Below are positions 29,118 through 40,955 of a stretch of 64,000 nucleotides of DNA, piece after piece. A model generated the notes under the pieces. It had not been told where the DNA came from. It saw nothing but the letters and a program-made list of their open reading frames with translations, and did no database searches. Position 1 is the stretch's first letter. Each line of letters starts with the position of its first letter. A program made the translations under genes and the position numbers. Source of the DNA: Dyella sp. C11 (GTDB lineage: Bacteria; Pseudomonadota; Gammaproteobacteria; Xanthomonadales; Rhodanobacteraceae); the NCBI RefSeq assembly GCF_003121485.1, contig NZ_QAVX01000001.1, forward strand, positions 124,001-188,000, written 5' to 3'.

Positions 29118-29571
29118 ACTTGGCCTTTGCTTTCTCGCTCGGTCGAAGCGATTCCGCAACTTGGCTCACCTGCCGCGGGCTTCCGGCCTCCTGCCGGAGG
29201 CCGGGTCACTTTCTCTTGCTTGCCCAAGAGAAAGTAACCAAAGAGAAGGGCACCCCGGATGACGCGCCTTCCGGGCTTTCAGCCCTCCAGGTCCGCGTGC
29301 GGGCTACGGGGTTTGTCGACAGGGCATCCTGCCCTGACGACAAACTGGCCGGCATCCATGCCGGCCACCCTGCGGGCTGGTCCTTCACCCGCACGCCGCT
29401 GTCATACGGGGCCCTGAGAGCGAAGGGCCAAAGCCAAAGCAAGGTTGGTGGCGCTTTCTCGAGCACCCGCCCCTCACCCCAGCCCTCTCCCCGGAGGGGA
29501 GAGGGAGCAAACCGGGCGGGCGGGGCGTGCACACCCGGTGACGCCCCCGTCACCTTGCCGGCGACATTCCA
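29118..29571. other. Repeat-derived spacer with a non-coding open frame
   Basis: A plus-strand frame (about 29120-29584) contains the reading HFLLLAQEKVTKEKGTP and ends through the CCCTCTCCCC palindrome. This combination recurs as spurious 'hypothetical' ORFs in Xanthomonadales spacers and is treated here as repeat-derived, not a gene. Contains the short palindrome GGCCTCCTGCCGGAGGCC near 29189. Confidence 0.5.
29474..29505. repeat. CCCTCTCCCC palindrome, copy B (inverted relative to copy A)
   Basis: TCACCCCAGCCCTCTCCCC-GGA-GGGGAGAGGG. Copy A reads the same on the other strand, so the two face each other about 530 bp apart and bracket the spacer between ctaB and the mgtA leader. Confidence 0.85.
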
Positions 29572-29711
29572 TTCACCCCTCTGAACGCAACAACTTTCGC
29601 CGCCAAAAAGGGCCGCCACGGGGTTGACACTTGCGCACCGCAGCAAGACAATTCGCGCGCCACCCGGCGCGGTTCGCCGTACGTGGCCTCTGTCCTATCA
29701 ACCCAAGGCAT

Positions 29712-29828
29712 ATGGACGTTTACCCTAGTCGCAACGTCGACATCCGCGAGCATCGGGTGCCGGCATTGCTTAACAAGCTGATCTGCTGCGGCGACCGCCT
29801 GCGGTCGGCTGGCGCTTTCCTCGACTAG
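29712..29828 (+). CDS. Possible upstream ORF 1 in the mgtA leader
   Basis: A 38-codon ORF starting MDVYPSRNVDIREH and ending AGAFLD, with AAGG close before the ATG. Its stop codon lies inside the 3' strand of a 9-bp closing helix (29723-29731 with 29822-29830), so translating ribosomes would open that helix. It looks more peptide-like than random (REHRVPALLNKL), but no homologue is known to me. Could be regulatory only. Confidence 0.4.
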   Translation: MDVYPSRNVDIREHRVPALLNKLICCGDRLRSAGAFLD

Positions 29829-29830
29829 GG
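29723..29830 (+). ncRNA. Candidate structured leader RNA upstream of mgtA
   Basis: CCCTAGTCG pairs perfectly with CGACTAGGG over a 90-base interior that holds a hairpin CGACCG-CCTG-CGGTCG at 29792-29807. No match by eye to the M-box (ykoK) or yybP-ykoY consensus. The location in a roughly 570-base leader of a Mg-transport gene suggests a cation- or translation-responsive element. This is inference from folding by eye only. Confidence 0.4.
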
Positions 29831-29848
29831 AAGACCGGCCCACCTCTG

Positions 29849-29866
29849 ACGGCGCTTCAGCGCCGT
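29849..29866 (+). promoter_or_regulatory. Hairpin just before leader ORF 2
   Basis: ACGGCGC-TTCA-GCGCCGT, a 7-bp stem. Four bases later comes the ribosome site GAGGAGAAAG of leader ORF 2. There is no T run, so it is not a simple terminator; it could occlude or expose the ribosome site or pause RNA polymerase. Confidence 0.55.
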
Positions 29867-29884
29867 TAACGAGGAGAAAGGGCC

Positions 29885-30115
29885 ATGAAGCTCCTTCGCG
29901 ATTTCTTCCGTCTGCGTGCTGCCCGCTCGGGCCGCCGTGTGGACTCCCGTTCCTGGACGATCACTGTGCCGGCCCCCCTGGCCGACGCGCAGCGTTCCCC
30001 GTCGTCCGATTCGCACCGTCTTTCCGACGCCCCGCGCGGCCATCAGGTCGCGCGCCGGCCGGAACATGCCGTTTCGCAAGCGCATCGTCATCTGCAGCTG
30101 GTATCCAGTCACTGA
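29885..30115 (+). CDS. Possible leader ORF 2 upstream of mgtA
   Basis: A 76-codon ORF beginning MKLLRDFFRLRAARSGRRVD with the strongest ribosome site of the region (GAGGAGAAAG). The first 25 residues are basic and coherent; the rest (VPAPLADAQRSPSSDSH and onward) is low-complexity. The gap to mgtA is 166 bp. It could be a sensing peptide as with mgtL/mgtP in enterobacteria, but no sequence similarity to those is seen. Coding status uncertain because alternative frames are also open here. Confidence 0.45.
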   Translation: MKLLRDFFRLRAARSGRRVDSRSWTITVPAPLADAQRSPSSDSHRLSDAPRGHQVARRPEHAVSQAHRHLQLVSSH

Positions 30116-30281
30116 TGAAGACCTCGCCGCGCATTGCGCTGCCGCGCAAGGGCTGGCCTCCGCCAGTCCCCTGGCAGCCTTTGCGGCGAAGTCCGTAGTG
30201 CACGTATTGGCGTCACGCGCGGGGTAACCCCGCCGGCTCGCTGGTCCGGCCCAGATGTCACCGATTTCACGGAAGCGAGTC

Positions 30282-32951
30282 ATGTTGAAGCACTCCACCC
30301 AGACCGTCACCGGCAAGACGGCCGGCACGAGCGCCGCCGCACCGGTGCGCGTGGCCGTTGCGCAGGAAGCGTTCCGCCACAACGAGGCGCTGTATGCGGC
30401 CCTCGATACCAGCGCCGCCGGCCTCAACGAAGAGCAGATTTCCGAGCGACTCGATCGCGACGGCGTCAACGAGGTCTCGCACGAGAAGCCGCCACACTGG
30501 TCGTTGCAGCTGCTTACCGCGTTCAAGAACCCGTTCATCATCGTGTTGCTGGTGCTGGCGGTCGTCCAGTTGCTCACCGACAGCAGCGACCTGACGGGCC
30601 CGATCATCATCGCGGTGATGGTGGGCATCAGCGTGCTTTTGAGCTTCACGCAGGAATACCGTTCGTCCAAGGCGGCCGAGAAGCTCAAGGCGATGGTGCG
30701 CAACACGGCCACCGTCACGCGTCGCGCGTCGGACGGCCACAGCGAGCGCATCGAAGTGCCGGTGGGCGAACTGGTCGCGGGCGACATCGTGCATCTCGCT
30801 GCGGGCGACATGGTGCCCGCGGACCTGCGCCTGGTTTCCGCGAAGGATCTGTTCATCAGCCAGGCCATCCTGACGGGTGAGTCGCTGCCGGTGGAGAAGT
30901 CCGCACCCGCGCACGTGCATACCGGAAGCGAACTGGAAGGCGGCCAGGCGACGGACAATCCGCTCGACCTGCCCACCGTCTGCTACATGGGCACCAACGT
31001 GGTGAGCGGCAGCGCCACGGCTGTCGTGGTGGCGACGGGTTCGCGCACGTATCTGGGTTCGCTCGCGCGGACCATCGTCGGCGAGCGCGTGCAGACCAGC
31101 TTCGATCGCGGCGTGAGCAGCGTCAGCTGGCTGCTGATCCGCTTCATGGCGGTGATGGTGCCGATCGTCTTCATCATCAATGGACTGGACAAGCACGACT
31201 GGCTGCAGGCCTTCCTGTTCGCGTTGTCGGTGGCCGTGGGCCTGACGCCCGAGATGCTGCCGCTGATCGTGACGGCGAACCTCGCCAAGGGCGCGCTCGC
31301 CATGTCCAACCGCAAGGTGGTGGTGAAGCGCCTCAACGCGATCCAGAACTTCGGTGCGATGGACGTGCTGTGCACGGACAAGACCGGCACGCTCACCCTC
31401 GACAAGATCGTGCTGGAGCGTCACCTCGACCTGTACGGCGAAGAATCGGATGAGGCGCTGGAATACGGCTACCTCAACAGCCGCTTCCAGACGGGGCTGA
31501 AGAACCTGATGGACAAGGCGGTGCTCGAGCATCGCGACCTGGAAGAAACCGCGCAGCACTACCGCATCGTCGACGAGATTCCGTTCGACTTCCAGCGCCG
31601 CCGCATGTCGGTAGTGCTGGGTAATGGCGACGGCCACGAGCTGCTGGTGTGCAAGGGCGCCGTCGAGGAAATGCTTTCCATCTGTTCGTCGGCAAAGATC
31701 GAAGGCGAGATCGTCCCGATGACGGACGAGATGCGCGCCGAGATCAAGGCGATGACGCGCGGCCTCAACGAAGACGGCCTGCGCGTGCTCGTGGTGGCCA
31801 TCAAGCAGCAGCCACCGGCAGGGCGCGCCTACGGCGTGGCCGACGAAAGCAGCCTGACTGCCGTCGGTTGCCTGGCCTTCCTCGATCCGCCGAAGGACAG
31901 TGCGGCCACCGCCATCGCGGCGCTGCATCACCACGGCGTGGAAGTGAAGGTGATCACCGGCGACAACGAAGCGGTGACGCGCAAGATCTGCCGCGAAGTG
32001 GGCCTGGATGTGGAGCACTCCGCGCAGGGCAAGCACATCGAGCCGCTGAGCGACGACGAGCTGGACGCGCTGGTAAAGCGCACCACCGTGTTCGCCAAGA
32101 TGTCGCCGCTGCAGAAGGCGCGCGTGGTGAAGTCGCTGCAGCGCCAGGGTCACACCGTGGGCTTCCTCGGCGATGGCATCAATGACGCACCGGCGCTGCG
32201 CGAAGCGGACGTGGGCATCTCGGTGGATACCGCCACCGATATCGCCAAGGAATCGGCGGACATCATCCTGCTCGAAAAGAACCTGATGGTGCTTGAGGAA
32301 GGCGTTATCGAAGGTCGCATCACCTTCGGCAACATCATCAAGTACATCAAGATGACTGCCAGCTCCAATTTCGGCAACATGTTCTCGGTGCTGGTGGCGA
32401 GCGCGTTCCTGCCGTTCCTGCCGATGCTGCCGCTGCAGATCCTGGTGTTGAACCTGCTGTACGACATCTCGCAGCTGTCCATTCCGTTCGACCGCATGGA
32501 CGACGAATACCTGCGCAAGCCGCGCAAGTGGGACGCCAGCGACATCGGCCGTTTCATGGTGTGGATCGGTCCGGTCAGCTCGATCTTCGACATCACCACG
32601 TTCCTGCTGCTGTGGTACGTGTTCGGCGCTAACTCGACGGAACACCAGTCGTTCTTCCAGTCGGGCTGGTTCATCGAGAGCCTGCTGACGCAAACGCTGA
32701 TCGTGCACATGATCCGCACGCGCCGCATTCCGTTCCTGCAGAGCATTGCGTCTGCACCGGTGCTGGCGCTGACCACGGCGATCATCATCGTCGGCATGCT
32801 GATCCCGTACATGGGCATCGGCAGCAAGATCGGCATGGTGCCGCTGCCGGGCGTGTACTTCGGCTGGCTGGCTATTACGGTGCTGACGTATTGCGTGCTG
32901 ACGCAGCTGGTGAAGCTGGTCTACATCAAACGGTACGGGCGCTGGTTGTGA
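30282..32951 (+). CDS. mgtA: Magnesium-translocating P-type ATPase
   Basis: Type IIIB P-type ATPase that imports Mg2+ at the expense of ATP, 889 aa. ATG of MLKHSTQTVT with GGA upstream. Domain order: cation N-terminal domain (AALDTSAAGLNEEQISERL), TM pair, actuator domain with TGES (ILTGESLPVEKS), TM pair with the ion-path VGLTPEMLPLIV, phosphorylation Asp in CTDKTGTLTLDK, nucleotide domain, hinge GDGINDAPALREADVGIS, then a six-TM C-terminal set (NFGNMFSVLVASAFLPFLPMLPLQIL). The long leader suggests post-initiation control. Confidence 0.96.
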   Translation: MLKHSTQTVTGKTAGTSAAAPVRVAVAQEAFRHNEALYAALDTSAAGLNEEQISERLDRDGVNEVSHEKPPHWSLQLLTAFKNPFIIVLLVLAVVQLLTDSSDLTGPIIIAVMVGISVLLSFTQEYRSSKAAEKLKAMVRNTATVTRRASDGHSERIEVPVGELVAGDIVHLAAGDMVPADLRLVSAKDLFISQAILTGESLPVEKSAPAHVHTGSELEGGQATDNPLDLPTVCYMGTNVVSGSATAVVVATGSRTYLGSLARTIVGERVQTSFDRGVSSVSWLLIRFMAVMVPIVFIINGLDKHDWLQAFLFALSVAVGLTPEMLPLIVTANLAKGALAMSNRKVVVKRLNAIQNFGAMDVLCTDKTGTLTLDKIVLERHLDLYGEESDEALEYGYLNSRFQTGLKNLMDKAVLEHRDLEETAQHYRIVDEIPFDFQRRRMSVVLGNGDGHELLVCKGAVEEMLSICSSAKIEGEIVPMTDEMRAEIKAMTRGLNEDGLRVLVVAIKQQPPAGRAYGVADESSLTAVGCLAFLDPPKDSAATAIAALHHHGVEVKVITGDNEAVTRKICREVGLDVEHSAQGKHIEPLSDDELDALVKRTTVFAKMSPLQKARVVKSLQRQGHTVGFLGDGINDAPALREADVGISVDTATDIAKESADIILLEKNLMVLEEGVIEGRITFGNIIKYIKMTASSNFGNMFSVLVASAFLPFLPMLPLQILVLNLLYDISQLSIPFDRMDDEYLRKPRKWDASDIGRFMVWIGPVSSIFDITTFLLLWYVFGANSTEHQSFFQSGWFIESLLTQTLIVHMIRTRRIPFLQSIASAPVLALTTAIIIVGMLIPYMGIGSKIGMVPLPGVYFGWLAITVLTYCVLTQLVKLVYIKRYGRWL

Positions 32952-33301
32952 GGGAAGGCGCGGTGGCTTTCTGGTTGCCGCGCTCCAAGGCCTCATGCCG
33001 GTGATGTGACACGCGATTTTTCCAGGCCTTCCTCTGGCGGCCCAGTCGGCTATTCACAACCCGGTGCCAGCGCGCATGTTTTCCTCACCGTCATTCCCGC
33101 GAAGGCGGGAATCCAGTGCCTTTTCGCTCTTCGAGCCAAAATCAACGGCGCTGGATTCCCGCCTTAGCGGGAATGACGGCCAGGGAGCCTGAGGTTTCAA
33201 GCGGTGATCGCTGCGCACTAGCGCTTTGCCACTACCAAAGACTTCCGCAAGGCATCCCATCGATGCTTTCGCGTATTCGCTTTTTAAAGGGAGGTCACGC
33301 C
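32952..33301. other. Intergenic region with repeat pair
   Basis: 350 bp after mgtA; holds the inverted CGTCATTCCCGC pair (33088-33179) and the ribosome site GGGAGG of the next gene. No gene seen. Confidence 0.6.
33088..33179. repeat. Inverted pair of CGTCATTCCCGC repeats
   Basis: Left unit at 33088-33118 (CCGTCATTCCCGC-GAAG-GCGGGAATCCAG) and right unit at 33151-33179 (CTGGATTCCCGC-CTTA-GCGGGAATGACGG) are inverted copies with 32 bases between them. This is a bipartite, miniature-element-like arrangement; the single copy is at 29087. Confidence 0.88.
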
Positions 33302-34951
33302 ATGAAAGGCACCTTCGCTCTTCTCGATATCGCCGGCTACGTCGCCCTGCTGCTGTGGGGCACGCACATGGTCACCAGCGGTGTGCTGCGTGGCTACGGC
33401 AGTGCATTGCGTCGCTGGATGGGCCGTTATCTCGGTCATCGCCCTGCCGCGCTCGGCTTCGGCGTGTGCGTCACGGCGTTGCTTCAGAGCAGCACGGCCA
33501 CGGGCTTGATGGCGACATCGTTCGCCGCCAGCGGCTTCCTGGGGCTCGCGCCGGGACTGGCCGTGATGCTCGGGGCCAACGTGGGTACGACGCTGATCGT
33601 GCAGGTGATGTCGTTCGACATCTCCATCGTGGCGCCGGTTTTGATCCTCATCGGCTTCACGGTGCACCGCCGTACCGACGATGTGAGCTATGAAAACCTC
33701 GGCCGCGTCTCCATTGGCCTTGGCCTGATGCTGCTTGCGTTGCACCTGCTGGTCGGCGCGATGGCGCCGGTGGAAAACGCCACCGTGTTGCGCGCCATTC
33801 TGCAAAGCCTGGCAAGCGAACCGGTGTTGGCCATGCTGGTGGCCGCCGTGCTCACGTGGGCCTGCCATTCCAGCGTGGCGGTGGTGCTGCTGATCGTGTC
33901 GCTGGCGACCGCAGGCGTGGTCGATGCGCCCGGTGCGCTCGCACTCGTGTTGGGCGCGAACCTGGGCGGCACCATTCCTGCCCTGATGGAAGCGCATACG
34001 CCAGTCGCACGTCGCCTGCCGATGGGTAACCTGATGGTGCGCGCGTTCGGTTGCGTGGTGTGCCTGCCCATGCTGCCGCTTATCGCGCACTGGCTGGCGC
34101 CGCTGGGGGCGTCGCCGGCGCGCATCGTGGTGAATTTCCATACGGCGTTCAACGTGGCGCTCGCACTGATCTTCATCGTGCCGGTGGAAAGCCTGGCTCG
34201 CCTGCTGGTGCGCCTGCTGCCCGAGCCGCCCAAGCCCAACGATCCGGGCGTGCCGCAGTACCTCGACGAAGGTGCGCTGGAATCGGCCAATGTGGCGCTG
34301 GCCAATGCCGCGCGCGAATCCATGCGCATGGCCGACATGGTGGAAAGCATGCTCAAGGGCCTGGTGGAAGTGTTCGGCAAGGACGATCGCGTGCGCGCCG
34401 CTGCCATCAGCCGCATGGACCCTTCGCTCGACAAGCTGGGCATGGCCATTCGCGAATACCTGGCCGATCTGGGCGGTGAAGCCCTGAACGAGGAAGACGG
34501 CGAACGCAGCCAGGAGATCCTCGCGTTCGTCATCAACATCGAACACATCGGCGACATCACGGCGAACAACCTGATGGAATTCGCCGCCAAGAAGGCCGAA
34601 CGCGGGCAGGATTTCTCCGCCGACGACATACAAGATCTTGCGGCCATGCACGCGCAAGTGATGGAAAGCCTGCGACTGGGTCTTACCGTATTTCTACGCG
34701 GTGACCTGCGTGCCGCACAACAATTGGTCGCACGCAAGGAAGCGCTGTGGCGCCTCGAGAACGAGGCCTCGGAACGCCACATCAAGGCGCTGCGCGAGCG
34801 TCGAGATGGTGGCGGCGGTGGAGACGTCTATCTGCGCATCCTGCGCGACCTCAAACGCATCCATTCGCACCTTGCAGCCCTGGCTTATCTCCCCCTGGAG
34901 CGCGCCGGCATGCTGCAGGACCGGCTGATTCGCGAGCCCGCGACGACCTGA
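33302..34951 (+). CDS. Na/Pi cotransporter family protein with PhoU-like tail
   Basis: Predicted sodium-phosphate symporter of 549 aa. ATG of MKGTFALLDI follows GGGAGG by seven bases; the frame open to 33116 crosses the repeats and is not used. Two repeated PF02690-type halves show the signatures LLQSSTATGLMATSF and ACHSSVAVVLLIVS, with GANVGTTLIVQ and GANLGGTIPALM after each. Residues from about 340 onward form the PhoU-like helical domain (RESMRMADMVESMLKGLVEVF; IEHIGDITANNLME). Known relatives move phosphate; in some bacteria they function in efflux or phosphate sensing. Confidence 0.93.
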   Translation: MKGTFALLDIAGYVALLLWGTHMVTSGVLRGYGSALRRWMGRYLGHRPAALGFGVCVTALLQSSTATGLMATSFAASGFLGLAPGLAVMLGANVGTTLIVQVMSFDISIVAPVLILIGFTVHRRTDDVSYENLGRVSIGLGLMLLALHLLVGAMAPVENATVLRAILQSLASEPVLAMLVAAVLTWACHSSVAVVLLIVSLATAGVVDAPGALALVLGANLGGTIPALMEAHTPVARRLPMGNLMVRAFGCVVCLPMLPLIAHWLAPLGASPARIVVNFHTAFNVALALIFIVPVESLARLLVRLLPEPPKPNDPGVPQYLDEGALESANVALANAARESMRMADMVESMLKGLVEVFGKDDRVRAAAISRMDPSLDKLGMAIREYLADLGGEALNEEDGERSQEILAFVINIEHIGDITANNLMEFAAKKAERGQDFSADDIQDLAAMHAQVMESLRLGLTVFLRGDLRAAQQLVARKEALWRLENEASERHIKALRERRDGGGGGDVYLRILRDLKRIHSHLAALAYLPLERAGMLQDRLIREPATT

Positions 34952-35001
34952 CGTAAGCCTCATTCCCTATCGTACTCATCCTGTAACGGAGCAACGGCAC
35001 A

Positions 35002-35079
35002 TTGGACCCGGACCCATCGACTGACATCGAACAATTTGCTGACGACGTCGACCCCGTTCCTGCGTTCGCTCCTGTCTGA
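35002..35079 (+). CDS. Possible acidic/proline-rich leader peptide before the RND operon
   Basis: A 25-codon ORF with TTG start, beginning (M)DPDPSTDIEQFADD and ending DPVPAFAPV; GGAG lies ten bases upstream. Its stop is 4 bases before a strong hairpin (35084-35125). N-terminal Asp/Pro alternation is the feature that makes enterobacterial MgtL (MEPDPTPLP) destabilise ribosomes, so this could sense conditions that affect the ribosome. The non-ATG start lowers confidence. Confidence 0.4.
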   Translation: MDPDPSTDIEQFADDVDPVPAFAPV

Positions 35080-35083
35080 GTGA

Positions 35084-35125
35084 ACCCGCACGCGGCGGCC
35101 GGCATCGGCAGAGCCGCGAGCGGGT
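35084..35125 (+). promoter_or_regulatory. Attenuator-like hairpin upstream of RND adaptor
   Basis: ACCCGCACGCGGC pairs with GCCGCGAGCGGGT over 13 positions with one mismatch and a 16-nt loop. A second hairpin GGCACC-CTTCA-GGTGCC follows at 35134-35150. No T run follows either. A ribosome stopping at the leader ORF would overlap the first stem, the geometry seen in translational or Rho-dependent attenuation. Confidence 0.5.
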
Positions 35126-35234
35126 CATGCGACGGCACCCTTCAGGTGCCACGCGCTATCCCTTCGCTATGGCTGCTTCATGGTTCCACGGCCGTGACGG
35201 GCAGCTGCATGCCAAGTATTTGCAGGGACACCTC

Positions 35235-36344
35235 ATGACGTACCGACTGACCCCACTCTTCCTTGTCGTCGCCACTTTGTCGCTGGCGGCTTGTTCTCAC
35301 CACGCCGACGAGCAGGCGCCGCCGCCCGCCGTGGTAGACGACCATGGCGTGCTGCGCGTGCCCGATGGCTCGCCGCTGCGCAAGGCACTCACCGTGGCAC
35401 CTGTAGAGATGCGCGAGGCGCCGCACGCACGCGTGTTTCCTGCCACGGTGGAGTCCGATCCCACGCGCACGGCGAACGTAGTGGCGCCACTCACCGGCCG
35501 TATCACCGAGCTGAAGGTGGGCCTGGGTGATCACGTGGAGCGGAACCAGTTGCTTGCCGTGATCGAGTCGGGCGACATGGCGCAGGCCTATGCGGATGTC
35601 GCCAAGGCGAACGACGCGCTGGCACTGGCGAAGAAGGGCATGGATCGCGCACGCGGCGTGCAACAGGCCGGTGGCAACGCGGTGAAGGATCTGGAAGCGG
35701 CGCAGAGCAACTACAACCAGGCGCAGGCGGAGCTCGATCGCGCGCAGACGCGGCTGCAGTCGATCAACAGCGGTGGTCAGGGCGGAACGTCTCGCAGCAT
35801 TCGCATCACCTCGCCGGTCAGCGGCTATGTCACGGCGCTGTCCGTGGCGCCCGGCACGTACGCCAACGACACCACCACGCCCTTGATGACCGTGGCCGAC
35901 ATCGACTCGGTGTGGATCACTGCCAACGTGCCTGAATCCGACGTGGGCGGCATCGCCAAGGGGCAGGCGGTGGATGCCACCTTGTCCGCCTATCCCGACC
36001 AGGTGTTCCACGGAAAAGTGGGTTTCATCAGCCAGGTGCTGCAGTCGGATACGCGTCGCGACATGGTGCGCGCCGTATTCGCCAATACGGATGGACGTCT
36101 GAAACCCAACATGTTCGCCAAGGCCAGCATTGCCGTGCCGCAACCGGCCCAGGTGTTCGTGCCCGAATCATCGCTGCTGATGAACAACGACAACACCACG
36201 GTGTTCGTGGAGGTGTCGCCGTGGGCGTTCGAGCGCCGCGCGGTGGAGTTGAGCTACGACGAAACTGCGGGTGCGCGCGTGGTGAAAGGCCTCAAGGCCG
36301 GCGACCGCGTGGTGGTGAAGGGCGGAGTGTTGCTCAATGATTAA
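35235..36344 (+). CDS. Efflux RND periplasmic adaptor lipoprotein (CusB/CzcB type)
   Basis: Membrane-fusion subunit of a tripartite pump, 369 aa. ATG of MTYRLTPLFL with AGGGA upstream; lipobox LSLAAC. Order: barrel-sandwich/lipoyl half (VVAPLTGRITELKVGLGDHVERNQLLAVIES), alpha-hairpin (VAKANDALALAKKGMDRARG and AAQSNYNQAQAELDRAQTRL), second lipoyl half (IRITSPVSGYVTALSVAPGTYAN), beta-barrel and membrane-proximal domains. No His-rich metal-binding extension like that of some CzcB proteins. The last 8 bases overlap the pump gene. Confidence 0.93.
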   Translation: MTYRLTPLFLVVATLSLAACSHHADEQAPPPAVVDDHGVLRVPDGSPLRKALTVAPVEMREAPHARVFPATVESDPTRTANVVAPLTGRITELKVGLGDHVERNQLLAVIESGDMAQAYADVAKANDALALAKKGMDRARGVQQAGGNAVKDLEAAQSNYNQAQAELDRAQTRLQSINSGGQGGTSRSIRITSPVSGYVTALSVAPGTYANDTTTPLMTVADIDSVWITANVPESDVGGIAKGQAVDATLSAYPDQVFHGKVGFISQVLQSDTRRDMVRAVFANTDGRLKPNMFAKASIAVPQPAQVFVPESSLLMNNDNTTVFVEVSPWAFERRAVELSYDETAGARVVKGLKAGDRVVVKGGVLLND

Positions 36345-39300
36345 TCAGCTCTTCCACTTCTGCTTCCAGAAGCGCGGGCTGTTCATCGTCGTCGCGGTGC
36401 TGGTGCTGATCTTCGGCTACTACTCGTGGACGCAGCTGGCCATCGAGGCGTACCCCGAACTGAGCGACGTCACCGCCCAGGTGACCACGCAGGTGCCGGG
36501 GCTGGCCGCCGAGGAGATCGAACAGCAGGTCACCACGCCGCTGGAACGTGCCTTGTCCGGTACGCCGGGCCTGGTGGCCATGCGCTCCAGCAGCACGTTC
36601 GGTCTCTCGCTGATCACGCTGGTGTTCAAGGACGGCTCGGAGGATTACTGGGAGCGTCAGCGCGTGACCGAGCGCATTGCGCAGGCCACGCTGCCAGCGG
36701 GCATCACGCCCAGTCTCGATCCGGTGTCGGGGCCGGCGGGCGAGATCTATCGTTACACGCTCGAATCCACCAGCAAGAACCTGATGCAGCTGTCGGAGCT
36801 TCAGAACTGGGTGGTTGTGCCGGCGCTGGAGAAGATTCCCGGCGTGGCCAACGTGGATGTGTTCGGCGGCTTCACCAAGGAGTTCCAGCTGGAGCTCGAT
36901 CCCGCGCAGCTGCTGCATTACGGCGTCAGCGTTAATCAGGTGACCAGCGCCATTTCATCCAATACGGCCAATGCAGGCGGCGGGCGCATTACGCGCGGCG
37001 CCCAGTCGTACATCGTGCGCGGCATCGGCATGGTGCACACGCTGAAGGATCTGGGCGACGTGGTGGTGACGCAGAACAACGGTGTACCCGTGCTGGTGCG
37101 CGACCTGGGCAAGCTGCAGTACGGCCACCAGGTGCGTGAAGGCATTCTTGGCAAGGACAACAACCCCGACACGGTCGAGGGCATCGTTGACCTGCTCAAG
37201 TACGAAAACCCCTCGCGCGTGCTGGAAGACATTCACGCCACGGTAGCCAAGCTCAACAAGCAGCTTGAGCCGCAGGATGTTCGCCTGGTGCCGTACATCG
37301 ATCGCGACGACCTGGTGAATGCCACGAAGGAAAAGGTGTTCCATACCGTGATGGAAGGTGTGGGCCTGGTGTGCATCGTGCTCATCCTGTTCCTGGGCAG
37401 CCCGCGTTCGGCGATGGTGGCGGCGGTGGCCATCCCCATGTCGCTCGTCACCGTGTTCATCCTGATGCAGTTCACGCACATGCCAGCGAATCTGTTCTCG
37501 CTGGGTGCGATCGACTTCGGTGTGATCGTGGATGGCACCATCGTGGTGACGGAGGCGATCCTGCGGCGTCGCGAAGAGAAGCCGAACTCGGTGCTCACCG
37601 AAGACGATGTGATGACGGTAACCAAGCACGTGGGTCGCTCGATCTTCTTCGCCACGTTGATCATTGTCACCGCGTACCTGCCGCTGTTCGCGTTCGAACA
37701 TGCCGAAGGCAAGCTGTTCCGTCCCATGGCCTTTACCGTGGGTTACGCGCTGCTGGCGGCGCTGCTGTGTACGGTGACGCTCACGCCGGGTCTTGCCTAC
37801 TTCGCGCTGCGCAAGCCGCGCAAGATGTTCAAGAACAAGCCGCTTGAGCGTCTGCAGGCCGGATACACAGCGATGCTTGCAAGGCTGCTGGGCAAGCTGC
37901 CGGTGGTCTATTCGGTGGCGGGCGTCGCCCTGGTTGGCGTCCTGGTGCTGGGCGCTTCCATCGGTCGCGAATTCCTGCCGGACCTGGACGAAGGATCGCT
38001 GTGGCTGCAGGTGCAGATGCCATCCGGTTTGTCGCTGGACAAGGCCAGCGAGATGACGTCGGACCTGCGCCGCGTGATCCGTGAGTTCCCCGAGGTGTCG
38101 TATGTGGTGACGCAGCTGGGTCGAAACGACACCGGCACCGACCCTTGGACACCGTCGCACGTGGAATCCGGTGTGGGCCTGAAGCCCTACGACACCTGGC
38201 CCAGCGGTGAAACCAAGGACCAGTTCATCCGCAAGTTCAACGCACGCATGCAGCAGATTCCCGGCGTTACCGTGGGTATCAGTCAGCCGATCGTGGACGG
38301 CGAGAACGACATGATCGGCGGCGCGCACAGCCCCCTGGTGCTGCGCATCTACGGTGACGACCTCAGCGAACTTCGCCGCATCGGCAATGAGATCGTGGAT
38401 GTATTGCACGGCGTGCGCGGCACCGCGGGAGCGTCGGTTTTCCAGGAGCCGCCCATTCCGCAGCTGGCCATTACCGCGGATCGCGATGCGGCTGCGCGTT
38501 ACGGCATCAACGTGGGCGACATCAGCGGTCTTATCCAGACGGCGATTGGCGGATCTCCGGTGACGCAGGTCTACGTGGGCGACCGCATCTACAACGTCAC
38601 CACACGCGTATCCAATGCGACGGCCAACAATGTCGAAGCCATCGGGCAGTTGCCGTTGAGCGCCGCCAATGGTGCGCAGGTGCCGTTGAAGCAGGTGGCG
38701 GACATCCGTTTCAAGACGGGCGAAAGCACCATCGCGCATCAGGAAGGCAAGCGCCAGATCACCATCGGCGTGGAGAACCGCGACCGTGCGTTGTCCGAAT
38801 ACCTTGCCGATGCGCAGGCGCAGATCGATGCGAAAGTGCATTTCGACAAGTCGATCTACCAACTGCAATGGGCGGGCACGTTCGAAAACCAGCAGCGCGC
38901 GGAAGCACGCCTTGGTGTCGTGATGGCGCTGGTGATGGGCATCATGCTGGTGTTCCTGTTCTTCGAATTCGGCAAGTTGCATCAGGCAGTCATGGTGCTG
39001 GCCGTGGTGCCGCTGGCAACGGTGGGTGGTCTCATCTCGCTGCATTTGCGTGGCGAGACACTCAACATCGCTACGGCAGTGGGCTTCATCGCGCTGTTTG
39101 GCGTAGCCGTGCAGAACGGCATCATCATGGTGGCGAATATCAATCGCGTGCGTAAGCACGGGCACGGCCTGCGCGATGCCGTGCTGGAAGGCGCCACCGA
39201 GCGCTTCCGTCCCGTGTTGATGACCGCGACCGTGGCCAGCGTCGGCATGTTGCCGGCGGCGCTTGCGACCGGCATCGGCACCGATGTGCAGCGCGGACTT

Positions 39301-39438
39301 GCCACGGTGGTCGTGGGCGGCCTGCCCATCGCCACGCTGCTGACGCTTTTCATTCTTCCGGGTTTCTACTTTGCGGTGGAGCGCTACATCGAGCGCCATC
39401 GTCGCAAGAGCCGTCCGCACCCCTCGCGGGAGCTGTGA
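36337..39438 (+). CDS. Heavy-metal efflux RND transporter (CzcA/CusA family)
   Basis: Inner-membrane proton-driven exporter, 1033 aa, twelve TM helices and two large periplasmic loops. The TM4 motif GAIDFGVIVDGTIVVTEAI is the heavy-metal (HME) subclass mark, with the proton-relay Asp pair. Other signs: AIEAYPELSDVTAQVTTQVPGLAAEEIEQQVT at the N-terminus and GVAVQNGIIMVANINRVRK in the second half. The Cus-type methionine ladder was not traced, so the metal (Co/Zn/Cd versus Cu/Ag) is undecided. Starts within the adaptor gene and is followed by its outer-membrane channel. Confidence 0.95.
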   Translation: MINQLFHFCFQKRGLFIVVAVLVLIFGYYSWTQLAIEAYPELSDVTAQVTTQVPGLAAEEIEQQVTTPLERALSGTPGLVAMRSSSTFGLSLITLVFKDGSEDYWERQRVTERIAQATLPAGITPSLDPVSGPAGEIYRYTLESTSKNLMQLSELQNWVVVPALEKIPGVANVDVFGGFTKEFQLELDPAQLLHYGVSVNQVTSAISSNTANAGGGRITRGAQSYIVRGIGMVHTLKDLGDVVVTQNNGVPVLVRDLGKLQYGHQVREGILGKDNNPDTVEGIVDLLKYENPSRVLEDIHATVAKLNKQLEPQDVRLVPYIDRDDLVNATKEKVFHTVMEGVGLVCIVLILFLGSPRSAMVAAVAIPMSLVTVFILMQFTHMPANLFSLGAIDFGVIVDGTIVVTEAILRRREEKPNSVLTEDDVMTVTKHVGRSIFFATLIIVTAYLPLFAFEHAEGKLFRPMAFTVGYALLAALLCTVTLTPGLAYFALRKPRKMFKNKPLERLQAGYTAMLARLLGKLPVVYSVAGVALVGVLVLGASIGREFLPDLDEGSLWLQVQMPSGLSLDKASEMTSDLRRVIREFPEVSYVVTQLGRNDTGTDPWTPSHVESGVGLKPYDTWPSGETKDQFIRKFNARMQQIPGVTVGISQPIVDGENDMIGGAHSPLVLRIYGDDLSELRRIGNEIVDVLHGVRGTAGASVFQEPPIPQLAITADRDAAARYGINVGDISGLIQTAIGGSPVTQVYVGDRIYNVTTRVSNATANNVEAIGQLPLSAANGAQVPLKQVADIRFKTGESTIAHQEGKRQITIGVENRDRALSEYLADAQAQIDAKVHFDKSIYQLQWAGTFENQQRAEARLGVVMALVMGIMLVFLFFEFGKLHQAVMVLAVVPLATVGGLISLHLRGETLNIATAVGFIALFGVAVQNGIIMVANINRVRKHGHGLRDAVLEGATERFRPVLMTATVASVGMLPAALATGIGTDVQRGLATVVVGGLPIATLLTLFILPGFYFAVERYIERHRRKSRPHPSREL

Positions 39439-39440
39439 TC

Positions 39441-40955
39441 ATGAACCAGTCACTGTTGTTTCGTTCCCTTCGCACTGCGCTTGCCCTGGGCGTAGTCGTG
39501 ACGCTTGCGGGTTGTGCGGTTGGGCCCGATTACAAGCGGCCACAGACGTCGCAGGCACAAACCTACTCACCCACGCCGATGCCAGCGCAGACGGCGTCGG
39601 CCAGTGGCCCGGCGGGCGAATCGCAGCATCTGCTGGCGTCGATGGATATTCCGGGCCAATGGTGGACGCTGTTCCACTCCGAGCCGCTCAACGGCCTGAT
39701 CGCCGACGCGCTCAAGCACAACGCGGATATCGAGGCGGCACACGCGTCGTTGCAGGCATCGTGGGAAGCCGTCTATGCGCAGCGTGGTGCTTACTTCCCC
39801 ACGGTCAACGGCAGCTTCAATCCCACGCGGCAGGATGTCGCCAACGATGTGGCGAGCGGCGTGGCGTCCAACGCCAACCTGTACAGCCTCACCACGGCGC
39901 AGGTGAGCGTGTCGTACGCGCTGGATATCTGGGGACTCAACCGGCGGCAGGTAGAATCGCTTGCGGCGCAGGCAAACCAGCAGCGCTTCCAGCTGGAGGC
40001 CACGTATCTCACGCTGACCAGCAACGTGGTGAATGCAGCGATTACCGAAGCATCGCTGCGTGCGCAGATCGACCTGACGCATCGGATCATCGACGAGCAG
40101 GAAAAGATCCTCGGCACGTTGAAGCGTCAGCAGGCGTTGGGTGATGTTTCAGACGCCGCGATCGCTGCGCAGGAAGCCACGCTGGAACAGAGCCGCGCCA
40201 CGCTGCCGCCGCTCGACAAGCAACTCGCGCAACAGCGTGATTTGCTGGCCACGCTTACCGGACGAACGCCTGACCAGCGCATTGACGCCACGTTCCAGCT
40301 GGATGCATTGCAGCTGCCCGCTGAATTGCCGGTCAGCTTGCCTGCGCAGTTGGTGGATCAGCGCCCCGATGTGCGTGCCGCAGAGGAGCAGCTGCACGCG
40401 GCCAGCGCGGAGGTGGGTGTGGCCATCGCCAACCGCTTGCCGAACGTGCAGATCAATGCGTCGTTCGGCAATGCGTCGGAACAGATGAGTCATCTCTTTG
40501 GCGCGGGCAGCGGTTTCTGGGGTGTGGGCGCCACGGTGACGCAGCCCTTGTTCGACGCGGGCACGCTCAAGCACAAGCAGCGTGGCGCCGAGGCGGCCTA
40601 TCGCCAGGCAGCGGCGCAATACCGCGGCACGGTGCTGGGTGCGATGCAGAATGTGGCGGACACGCTGCACGCCATCGATGCCGACGCGCAGGCGCTGGCC
40701 GCCGCGCAGCGGGCCGAGCAGGCGGCTGCGCGCAGTCTGGATATTGCCAGGCGTCAGCTGGCACTCGGTGACCTCAGCGAAAGCGCCATGCTCAATGCGC
40801 AGCTCACCTGGCAACAGGCGGCGCTGACGCTGGTACAGGCGCGCGCCGCGCGTTACGCCGACACCGTGGCGCTGTTCCAGTCGCTGGGCGGCGGCTGGTG
40901 GCACCGGAAGGACGAGCAGGAGACGGCGACCGCGCGGTCGGACACGCCGCGCTAG
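39441..40955 (+). CDS. Outer-membrane efflux channel lipoprotein (NodT/OprM type)
   Basis: TolC-like trimeric channel subunit, 504 aa. ATG with GGGAG eight bases upstream; a GTG six bases earlier is too close. Lipobox VTLAGCAVGPDYKRP is the classical NodT start. Two OEP repeats: ALKHNADIEAAHASLQASWEAVYAQRGAYFP with SYALDIWGLNRRQVES, and DVRAAEEQLHAASAEVGVAIANRLPNVQINASFG with a QPLFDAG turn. Completes the adaptor-pump-channel operon; its stop is only 3 bp from the stop of the convergent pentapeptide gene. Confidence 0.94.
   Translation: MNQSLLFRSLRTALALGVVVTLAGCAVGPDYKRPQTSQAQTYSPTPMPAQTASASGPAGESQHLLASMDIPGQWWTLFHSEPLNGLIADALKHNADIEAAHASLQASWEAVYAQRGAYFPTVNGSFNPTRQDVANDVASGVASNANLYSLTTAQVSVSYALDIWGLNRRQVESLAAQANQQRFQLEATYLTLTSNVVNAAITEASLRAQIDLTHRIIDEQEKILGTLKRQQALGDVSDAAIAAQEATLEQSRATLPPLDKQLAQQRDLLATLTGRTPDQRIDATFQLDALQLPAELPVSLPAQLVDQRPDVRAAEEQLHAASAEVGVAIANRLPNVQINASFGNASEQMSHLFGAGSGFWGVGATVTQPLFDAGTLKHKQRGAEAAYRQAAAQYRGTVLGAMQNVADTLHAIDADAQALAAAQRAEQAAARSLDIARRQLALGDLSESAMLNAQLTWQQAALTLVQARAARYADTVALFQSLGGGWWHRKDEQETATARSDTPR

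Follow-up and report, generated by a model that had tools for sequence, protein, structure and literature searches.

The magnesium-transporter gene mgtA of Dyella sp. C11 is preceded by a long leader in which a short open reading frame, ORF1, overlaps a set of predicted competing RNA helices, and copies of this leader precede both other mgtA genes and several unlinked operons of the family Rhodanobacteraceae. We consider it probable that the leader acts in cis and makes the expression of operons for magnesium import and related ion homeostasis depend on the translation of short ORFs, as an attenuator for Mg2+ starvation that is read by the ribosome. The window, that is, the whole stretch of DNA analysed, comprises 64,000 nucleotides of the forward strand of contig NZ_QAVX01000001.1, and positions refer to it unless a locus is named. 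Its features, and the genes behind other copies of the leader, are collected in Table 1.

Table 1. Predicted features of the mgtA leader and its surroundings in the window, followed by the genes read behind leader copies at other loci.
Feature	Position or loci	Strand	Remarks
Promoter TTGACA-17-GACAAT	29624..29652	+	10/12 matches, 0.0 expected in shuffles; predicted transcription start ~29659
ORF1	29712..29828	+	38 codons, stop TAG 29826-29828; reading frame kept, with overlapping RNA structure; Asp2, Pro5
Stem A, 5' arm (region 1)	29723..29731	+	CCCTAGTCG, ORF1 codons 4-7
Stem-loop B	29732..29768	+	29732-29746 with 29754-29768
Stem-loop C (GACCG/CGGTC)	29793..29806	+	94.9% of cells paired, two-sided changes in 2/5 pairs
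Stem-loop D	29807..29840	+	29807-29821 with 29827-29840; competes with A and the outer part of E
Stem A, 3' arm	29822..29830	+	holds ORF1 stop TAG
Stem E with inner hairpin	29837..29884	+	29837-29846 with 29871-29884; predicted to hide ORF2 ribosome site GAGGAG 29871-29876
ORF2	29885..30115	+	76 codons, contains TITVPAPL
ORF3	30115..30198	+	27 codons, MKTSPRIALPRKGWPPPVPWQPLRRSP; start overlaps ORF2 stop (TGATG); Trp-Pro-Pro-Pro codons 30154-30165
Hairpin over mgtA ribosome site	30235..30281	+	30235-30248 with 30270-30281
mgtA	30282..32951	+	magnesium-translocating P-type ATPase; start most likely
Na/Pi cotransporter	33116-34951	+	co-directional with mgtA, downstream
CzcB-type adaptor	35127-36344	+	co-directional with mgtA
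CusA/CzcA RND pump	36337-39438	+	co-directional with mgtA
Outer membrane efflux protein	39435-40955	+	co-directional with mgtA; whole run 33116..40955
AdoMet-decarboxylase homologue + NRAMP	L075, L076, L078, L081, L129, L138		tblastn
NRAMP alone	L146		tblastn
CzcB + CusA homologues	L086, L132-L137, L141		tblastn
Na/Pi cotransporter	L140; in L139 then CzcB and CusA		tblastn
TonB-dependent receptor	L128 (G184:C1:1347508-1352163)		Pfam
CPA1 Na+/H+ antiporter	L145		
AdoMet-decarboxylase homologue + large ORF	L130, relative in L131		

The product of mgtA was identified as a magnesium P-type ATPase by TIGR01524 (1294.6 bits against a cut-off of 610.75). Its start most likely lies at 30282, behind the conserved ACGGAAGCGAGTC, because the alignment of relatives shows the start there; the mechanical ORF list gives 30255 instead. 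The original prediction described a long leader with a 38-codon ORF1 whose stop lies inside a helix, a hairpin before a ribosome site and a 76-codon ORF2, and all of these are present. The segments CCCTAGTCG (29723-29731) and CGACTAGGG (29822-29830) are exact complements with the ORF1 stop inside the 3' arm, and an inverted repeat (29849-29866) precedes GAGGAG. The leader also stands out from chance: its first 242 nt fold better than shuffled sequence (z -3.1, 2/200 shuffles as good), ORF1 has matches in relatives, and the helices carry compensatory changes. ORF3 with its Trp-Pro-Pro-Pro, the hairpin over the mgtA start and the leader copies at other operons had been missed.

A promoter-like pair with at least 9/12 matches was found within 140 nt upstream of ORF1 in 88/89 loci, which are not all distinct, and in 85 of the loci having it, the distance from its end to ORF1 is 51-62 nt. 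The pattern scored was TTGACN with a spacer of 16-18 and a variable second hexamer, and 9/12 matches were reached by 13/445 letter-shuffled upstream sequences. A transcription start after 29900, which the original prediction had regarded as fatal to the leader, is unlikely because this pair precedes ORF1. The conserved promoter fits control after initiation and is also compatible with a regulator at the promoter; we infer that the leader acts after transcription start.

Matches to ORF1 were detected in 20/20 genomes of the genus and in 46/101 relatives (E<=0.1, including weak ones such as that of G083, judged to be chance), and matches to ORF2 in 38/101 relatives at E<=0.01, weak ones included. 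A covariance-model search of related leaders had been proposed as the check, and model R1, built from 38 copies, gave 116 matches in 91/147 genomes of the family, belonging to 21/26 genera. The element lies 357-750 nt upstream (median 497.5) of 88/89 mgtA genes in the high-scoring clade; the remaining gene sits at a contig end, with its start at base 5. These 89 genes comprise 87 matches of at least 1236 bits, a fragment (G169) and a split gene (G149), lower-scoring mgtA genes being left out. Also left out of most counts were L083-L085 (not elements), L031 and L052 (same places as other loci), and L147 and L167 (weak model matches, not elements). In 10 leaders of the other mgtA clade, no Pro-Pro ORF was found by a crude test for SD and ATG. 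X. campestris 8004 is reported to be without MgtA (PMC10470534).

Conservation of the leader holds within the family and was not seen in the genomes sampled from the rest of the order. In the order-wide search 63/299 genomes gave a match, all of them from the window's family except one 30-nt match at chance level, and in the class-wide search 1/369 genomes, the window's own, did so, with stricter filters in these large searches that lose weak matches. A DNA pattern run across 84,980 species (one genome each) returned 91 stretches; the 80 of these that were listed belong to Dyella, Rhodanobacter, Frateuria, Luteibacter, Fulvimonas, or to bins named only to a higher rank.

In 81/83 distinct copies ORF1 has kept its reading frame, which opens with ATG, closes with a stop at a similar position and spans 37-41 codons; RND-linked copies end on TGA instead of TAG. 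The frame is broken in L149 and L081. The latter (G002:C1:5185698-5189698) is NRMT-linked, has a 1-nt insertion at the ORF1 stop and is without a recognisable promoter; this copy of the leader is probably decaying. Among 46 distinct 38-codon copies, pairwise differences in ORF1 by codon position were 8.3/8.2/6.9, with no excess at the third. Since the third position is not freer, the nucleotide sequence of ORF1 is constrained, and by these counts what is kept is RNA plus reading frame, rather than a peptide. Asp2 and Pro5 are present in 89/89 loci; apart from these two residues, a conserved ORF1 peptide acting as a sensor is unsupported by the codon-position test. Conserved ORF starts, named beforehand as supporting evidence, were borne out, and conservation of the ORF1 peptide was not.

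Pairing in the named helices was counted on alignment A2, which holds 71 of the 87 extended distinct copies (alignment A1 holds 38 of 45 short distinct copies); the kinship of the copies is uncorrected in these counts and in the ribosome model below. Stem A, the 9-bp helix for which compensatory changes had been proposed as a test, is paired in 91.2% of cells (71 copies; slid controls at most 52.5%), and the changes exist, though they are few: 3/9 pairs changed on both sides, a number also reached by 130/500 shuffles. The main helix of stem-loop B has two-sided changes in 8/11 pairs, and its three outermost pairs are weak, being unpaired in 29, 44 and 10 of 71 copies. Stem-loop D is paired in 93.4% of cells, with two-sided changes in 8/13 pairs. 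Taken together, B, C and D reach 90.3% of cells paired and two-sided changes in 18/31 pairs (slid controls at most 48.1%). Stem E with its inner hairpin reaches 80.7% (slid controls at most 47.3%), and its 13/17 two-sided pairs were equalled by 10/500 shuffles. In L067/L068 a pair of stem C has changed on both sides, which turns Asp to Asn and Ser to Leu in ORF1.

Stems A and D share the AGGG arm (columns 141-144 of A2), and D and E share GGCC (columns 152-155). The compensatory changes support competing helices A, D and E in a layout of 1:2/3:4 versus 2:3, A receiving the least of this support. RNAalifold alone picked A, B and C, not D. Stem D was spotted by eye and afterwards tested by pair counting, and is therefore no unbiased prediction.

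A conserved fold of this kind may recall a true riboswitch, in which the A/B/C junction would bind Mg2+ or another ion directly and the ORFs would matter little for sensing. In its favour are the conservation of ORF1 at the RNA level, third positions included, the multi-helix core with covariation, of which RNAalifold finds three helices unaided, and the association with two kinds of Mg transporter, as with the M-box (PMC4072509). We regard it as unlikely nonetheless, given that the ORF1 frame and stop are kept in 81/83 copies, that the core of ORF3 is kept as a peptide, that neither the M-box nor any other Rfam family matches, and that in static folds stem D fails to release the ribosome site. 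When A or D was enforced, the ORF2 SD was equally hidden (unpaired 0.24 versus 0.22), so that D alone does not free it; with D it was more open in 17/71 copies and less open in 23/71. Stem A is more stable than D in 66/71 copies. A simple riboswitch with D freeing the ribosome site is thus unsupported by constrained folding.

Control by the ribosome, the reading preferred here, was modelled by placing a 29-nt mask on every second ORF1 codon and computing the cost of opening the ORF2 initiation site in the 71 copies; the model ignores kinetics and tertiary structure. With the mask on codons 1-11, the mean modelled cost drops by 1.8-2.5 kcal/mol, and the site becomes easier to open by more than 1 kcal/mol in 43-51 of 71 copies and harder in 0-9. 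With the mask on codons 29-37, the mean modelled cost rises by 2.0-2.6 kcal/mol, and the site becomes harder to open in 36-57 of 71 copies and easier in 0-5. At codon 39, the stop position, access to ORF2 is near neutral, and at codon 41, beyond the reach of most copies, the cost is down by 4.0. The late-minus-early swing amounts to 4.27 kcal/mol and exceeds 1 in 66/71 copies; dinucleotide shuffling of the ORF1 body reduces it to 0.42, with values above 1 in 73/213. The swing is small in the window's own copy (1.4 kcal/mol), and five Dyella copies range from -0.3 to 3.4. In the model, a ribosome early on ORF1 thus favours opening of the ORF2 ribosome site, and a late one its closure. The original idea of ORF1 translation as a switch finds support in this model, but static folds alone do not show it. 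Its proposed action, the melting of one helix by translation, has to be changed: the CCCTAGTCG helix would compete with a second helix set and the second with a third, and the effect would depend on the position of the ribosome.

Downstream of ORF1, Thr-Val-Pro recurs in ORF2 across most mgtA-linked copies, often as T-V-P-A-P, and the length of ORF2 varies. A third-position excess was found past codon 10 of ORF2 in the length classes 76, 79 and 81, and hardly in 80. At the end of ORF2, the stop shares bases with the start that follows: the junction reads TGATG or TAATG in 39/87 copies and ATGA, GTGA or TTGA in 27/87. A short ORF with Trp/Arg-Pro-Pro is present at the ORF2 stop in 62/87 copies; the reverse strand gave 1 and letter shuffles 5.4, for a motif that was picked after the copies had been seen. 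By the same test, 25/87 copies have no such ORF, including 7/8 mgtA copies of genus g11. Four NRMT-linked copies, outside the 62, carry Arg-Pro-Pro at the ORF2 end instead. L128-L131 and L138 possess two Arg-Pro-Pro in succession, one near the ORF2 end and one just past the start of the next short ORF.

Codons 12-18 of ORF3 read K-G-W-P-P-P-V in 16/16 distinct TGATG-coupled 27-codon ORF3s, which were taken regardless of the motif and are close relatives. As these codons differ at third positions only, the ORF3 peptide is what is kept. A codon count for K-G-W-P-P-P on copies picked by a DNA pattern was discarded as biased, that pattern itself fixing the first two positions of three of the motif's codons. 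The segment AAGYGAGNNATG follows ORF2 in 28 loci, and in 21 of these leaders, aligned with the other 7 left out, the mgtA-start hairpin has 12 nearly invariant pairs; this is no independent test of conservation, because the loci were picked by the 3' arm of the hairpin. In the window, the Trp-Pro-Pro-Pro codons of ORF3 are enclosed by a stem formed by 30120-30130 and 30183-30193. This stem shows partial covariation in 21 leaders of the Dyella type and may couple the translation of ORF3 to the hairpin at mgtA.

The third-position excess and the conserved motifs of ORF2 and ORF3 could also be expected of functional small proteins, with ORF1-ORF3 and mgtA forming nothing but the start of an ordinary polycistronic operon. 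We hold this to be very improbable: no peptide-level selection was seen in ORF1, ORF2 and ORF3 differ widely in length and sequence outside their short motifs, and the ORF2 ribosome site lies within a covarying helix.

Twenty-eight of the 116 model matches do not precede the clade's mgtA genes; four of the 28 score below 29 bits, and the two of these that were inspected (L147, L167) are not elements. Twenty-three distinct non-mgtA copies were examined by tblastn, L082 and L144 ending too soon for their target genes to be read. Metal-efflux RND genes follow in 9/23 and NRMT in 7. NRAMP/NRMT targets were found in five genera and RND-only targets in three, with 6/8 of the latter in one genus. Homologues of the Na/Pi and RND genes that follow mgtA in the window have their own leader copy elsewhere, and a PhoU domain was seen in the Na/Pi cotransporter of both L139 and the window. 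L086 (G039:C1:956404-960404) has a full mgtA-type leader without mgtA and with RND adaptor and pump genes behind it; the same genome has two more leader copies, both with mgtA. Either loss of mgtA or copying of the leader would account for this arrangement.

The NRAMP protein of L075 has EleNRMT 7qia as its best solved relative (184 bits, followed by 74 for the next and about 51 or less for MntH chains). It shares the GTTxAPW site with EleNRMT and has Ala in helix 1 where EleNRMT has Gly. Thr and Ala at the helix-6 site are described for NRMTs, in place of Ala/Met (PMC8806188). With both the closest relationship to an NRMT and the helix-6 Thr/Ala, the L075 protein is assigned to the NRMTs; the other NRAMP targets are 81-90% identical by tblastn, the two features having been applied to the L075 protein alone.

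The AdoMet-decarboxylase homologue of this locus (L075:2516-2932, minus strand) matches PF02675 with 44.5 bits and lies below the TIGR03330 cut-off; homologues are also present in L076, L078, L081, L129-L131 and L138. It seems to lack the Ser of the usual cleavage motif, and may therefore be no active enzyme. In L130, the leader and the AdoMet-decarboxylase homologue are followed by an ORF of ~820 codons (L130:115-2574, minus strand). No Pfam match was found for it at E<=1e-5, and the reading of this ORF and its 83% relative in L131 as TonB receptors was withdrawn. The leader before the TonB-dependent receptor gene of L128 suggests that outer-membrane uptake belongs to the same regulon.

A link to magnesium is not evident for the RND, antiporter and receptor targets, and our guess is that efflux of metals that have come in through unselective Mg importers would fit. 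These targets also bear on the signal. The same kind of attenuator might answer to another divalent metal, a polyamine, phosphate/ATP or charged tRNA-Pro instead of Mg2+, considering that metal-efflux RND genes (9/23), Na/Pi cotransporters (L139, L140), an AdoMet-decarboxylase homologue and a Na+/H+ antiporter are among the genes behind it, and that in Salmonella ATP and proline-charged tRNA are sensed through mgtM and mgtP (PMC3641672). We consider another signal quite unlikely. The gene mgtA is by far the commonest target, with 88 copies, and NRMT targets occur in five genera versus three for RND-only, with 6/8 in one. Very low Mg2+ is, moreover, reported to induce polyamine synthesis in Salmonella (PMC12421838).

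Under the preferred reading of a Mg2+-starvation attenuator, transcription would begin at about 29659 and ORF1 would be translated through the folded RNA. Region 1 (CCCTAGTCG) would pair with region 2 at the ORF1 stop as stem A, region 2 could instead fold with region 3 as stem D, and region 3 (GGCCCACCTC) could instead pair with region 4, the ORF2 ribosome site, as stem E. Slow movement or drop-off of a ribosome close to the ORF1 start would mask region 1, allowing D to form and weakening E, so that ORF2 is on; a ribosome reaching the end of ORF1 would mask D, leaving E intact and ORF2 off. Ribosomes would pass from ORF2 into ORF3 at the overlap TGATG. In ORF3, delayed decoding of Trp/Arg-Pro-Pro(-Pro) would then decide whether the mgtA start hairpin opens or transcription continues. 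The putative slow sites are Asp2/Pro5 and the Pro codons, and the presumed signal is low cytoplasmic Mg2+ that impairs elongation, Mg2+ being proposed because of the target genes.

Should this mechanism be true, control of Mg2+ import by a reading ribosome would have arisen outside the enterobacteria on the basis of a different RNA, and the ribosome as the cell's Mg2+ meter would become testable by convergence. Dyella and its relatives may thus use the ribosome to sense a lack of magnesium in a manner of their own. The copies define a candidate Rhodanobacteraceae Mg2+ regulon that includes the NRMT transporter, metal efflux and the AdoMet-decarboxylase homologue. In its widest form, the proposal is of a new Mg2+-starvation RNA family that is itself an ORF, with the ribosome as sensor, an aptamer-like fold as ruler and a three-ORF relay to mgtA, whose copies spread as a family-wide regulon (Mg uptake, phosphate transport, metal efflux and an AdoMet-decarboxylase/NRMT operon) independently of mgtL, mgtM, mgtP, mgtQ and the M-box. 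We give this form an even chance of being right. The RNA family could be added to Rfam.

No Rfam family reached its gathering score in the window, nor in 8 loci with copies. At E<=5, positions 29560-30320 gave only one CRISPR-repeat match at chance level (E 2.8), and at E<=1 none was found for L082 and L144. M-box, Mg-sensor and all other Rfam families were rejected for want of a covariance-model match, in agreement with the earlier impression by eye that the leader does not match the M-box. Among the matches listed, titles and abstracts of the open-licence literature contained no description of the leader; by word search the leader is unmentioned in the searched text of PMC6429828, and that of PMC11109978 holds only a different motif. 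The latter, the Thioalkalivibrio mgtE motif, is likewise a candidate RNA upstream of a Mg-transporter gene (PMC11109978). It differs in gene and genus.

Leader peptides of the mgtL type have abundant interspersed Pro codons at the start of the ORF. In the 89 loci, ORF1 begins M-D-x-x-P and has at most two adjacent Pro. Similar to mgtL of Salmonella mgtA, a leader ORF with Pro codons lies ahead of mgtA (PMC6460261); unlike mgtL, ORF1 is not Pro-rich, and the Pro run sits in the third ORF. The M-box, which also precedes NrmT in Clostridia and Deltaproteobacteria, is a single RNA shared by several types of Mg transporter (PMC4072509), and the leader is similar in being common to several kinds of Mg transporter, including NRAMP-related ones. 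In contrast to the M-box, a reading frame runs through the RNA here, and the last stem holds the ribosome site of an ORF and no terminator.

The closest parallels are found in Salmonella. Like its mgtCBR leader (mgtM, mgtP), the leader described here is long and has more than one ORF before Mg-transport genes, with consecutive Pro codons (PMC3641672, PMC6460261). In the leader ORF mgtP, three Pro codons stand in a row (PMC6460261; PMC3641672), and consecutive Pro occur here as Trp-Pro-Pro-Pro in ORF3. Unlike in mgtCBR, there are three ORFs, the later ones overlapping stop-to-start in many copies, ORF1 is conserved at the nucleotide level, and the leader precedes several unlinked operons within one family only. 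In mgtQ, stem 2:3 is the alternative to stems 1:2 and 3:4, and the choice is made by an ORF bearing Asp2 (PMC8092293). The leader is similar in having a short ORF over alternative stems, a stem 3:4 that hides the ribosome site of the following gene, Asp as codon 2 and a Pro close by (PMC8092293). ORF1 overlaps stems predicted to be mutually exclusive, with the next ribosome site in the last of them, D and E being better supported than A. Different from mgtQ, which has 8 codons and lies between mgtC and mgtB (PMC8092293), ORF1 has 37-41 codons with two stem-loops within it, stands at the 5' end of the transcript and would first control another short ORF; the two were compared by layout. Although membership in either group does not follow from a comparison of the Salmonella leaders by layout, the leader of Dyella and its relatives appears to work like mgtQ and mgtP.
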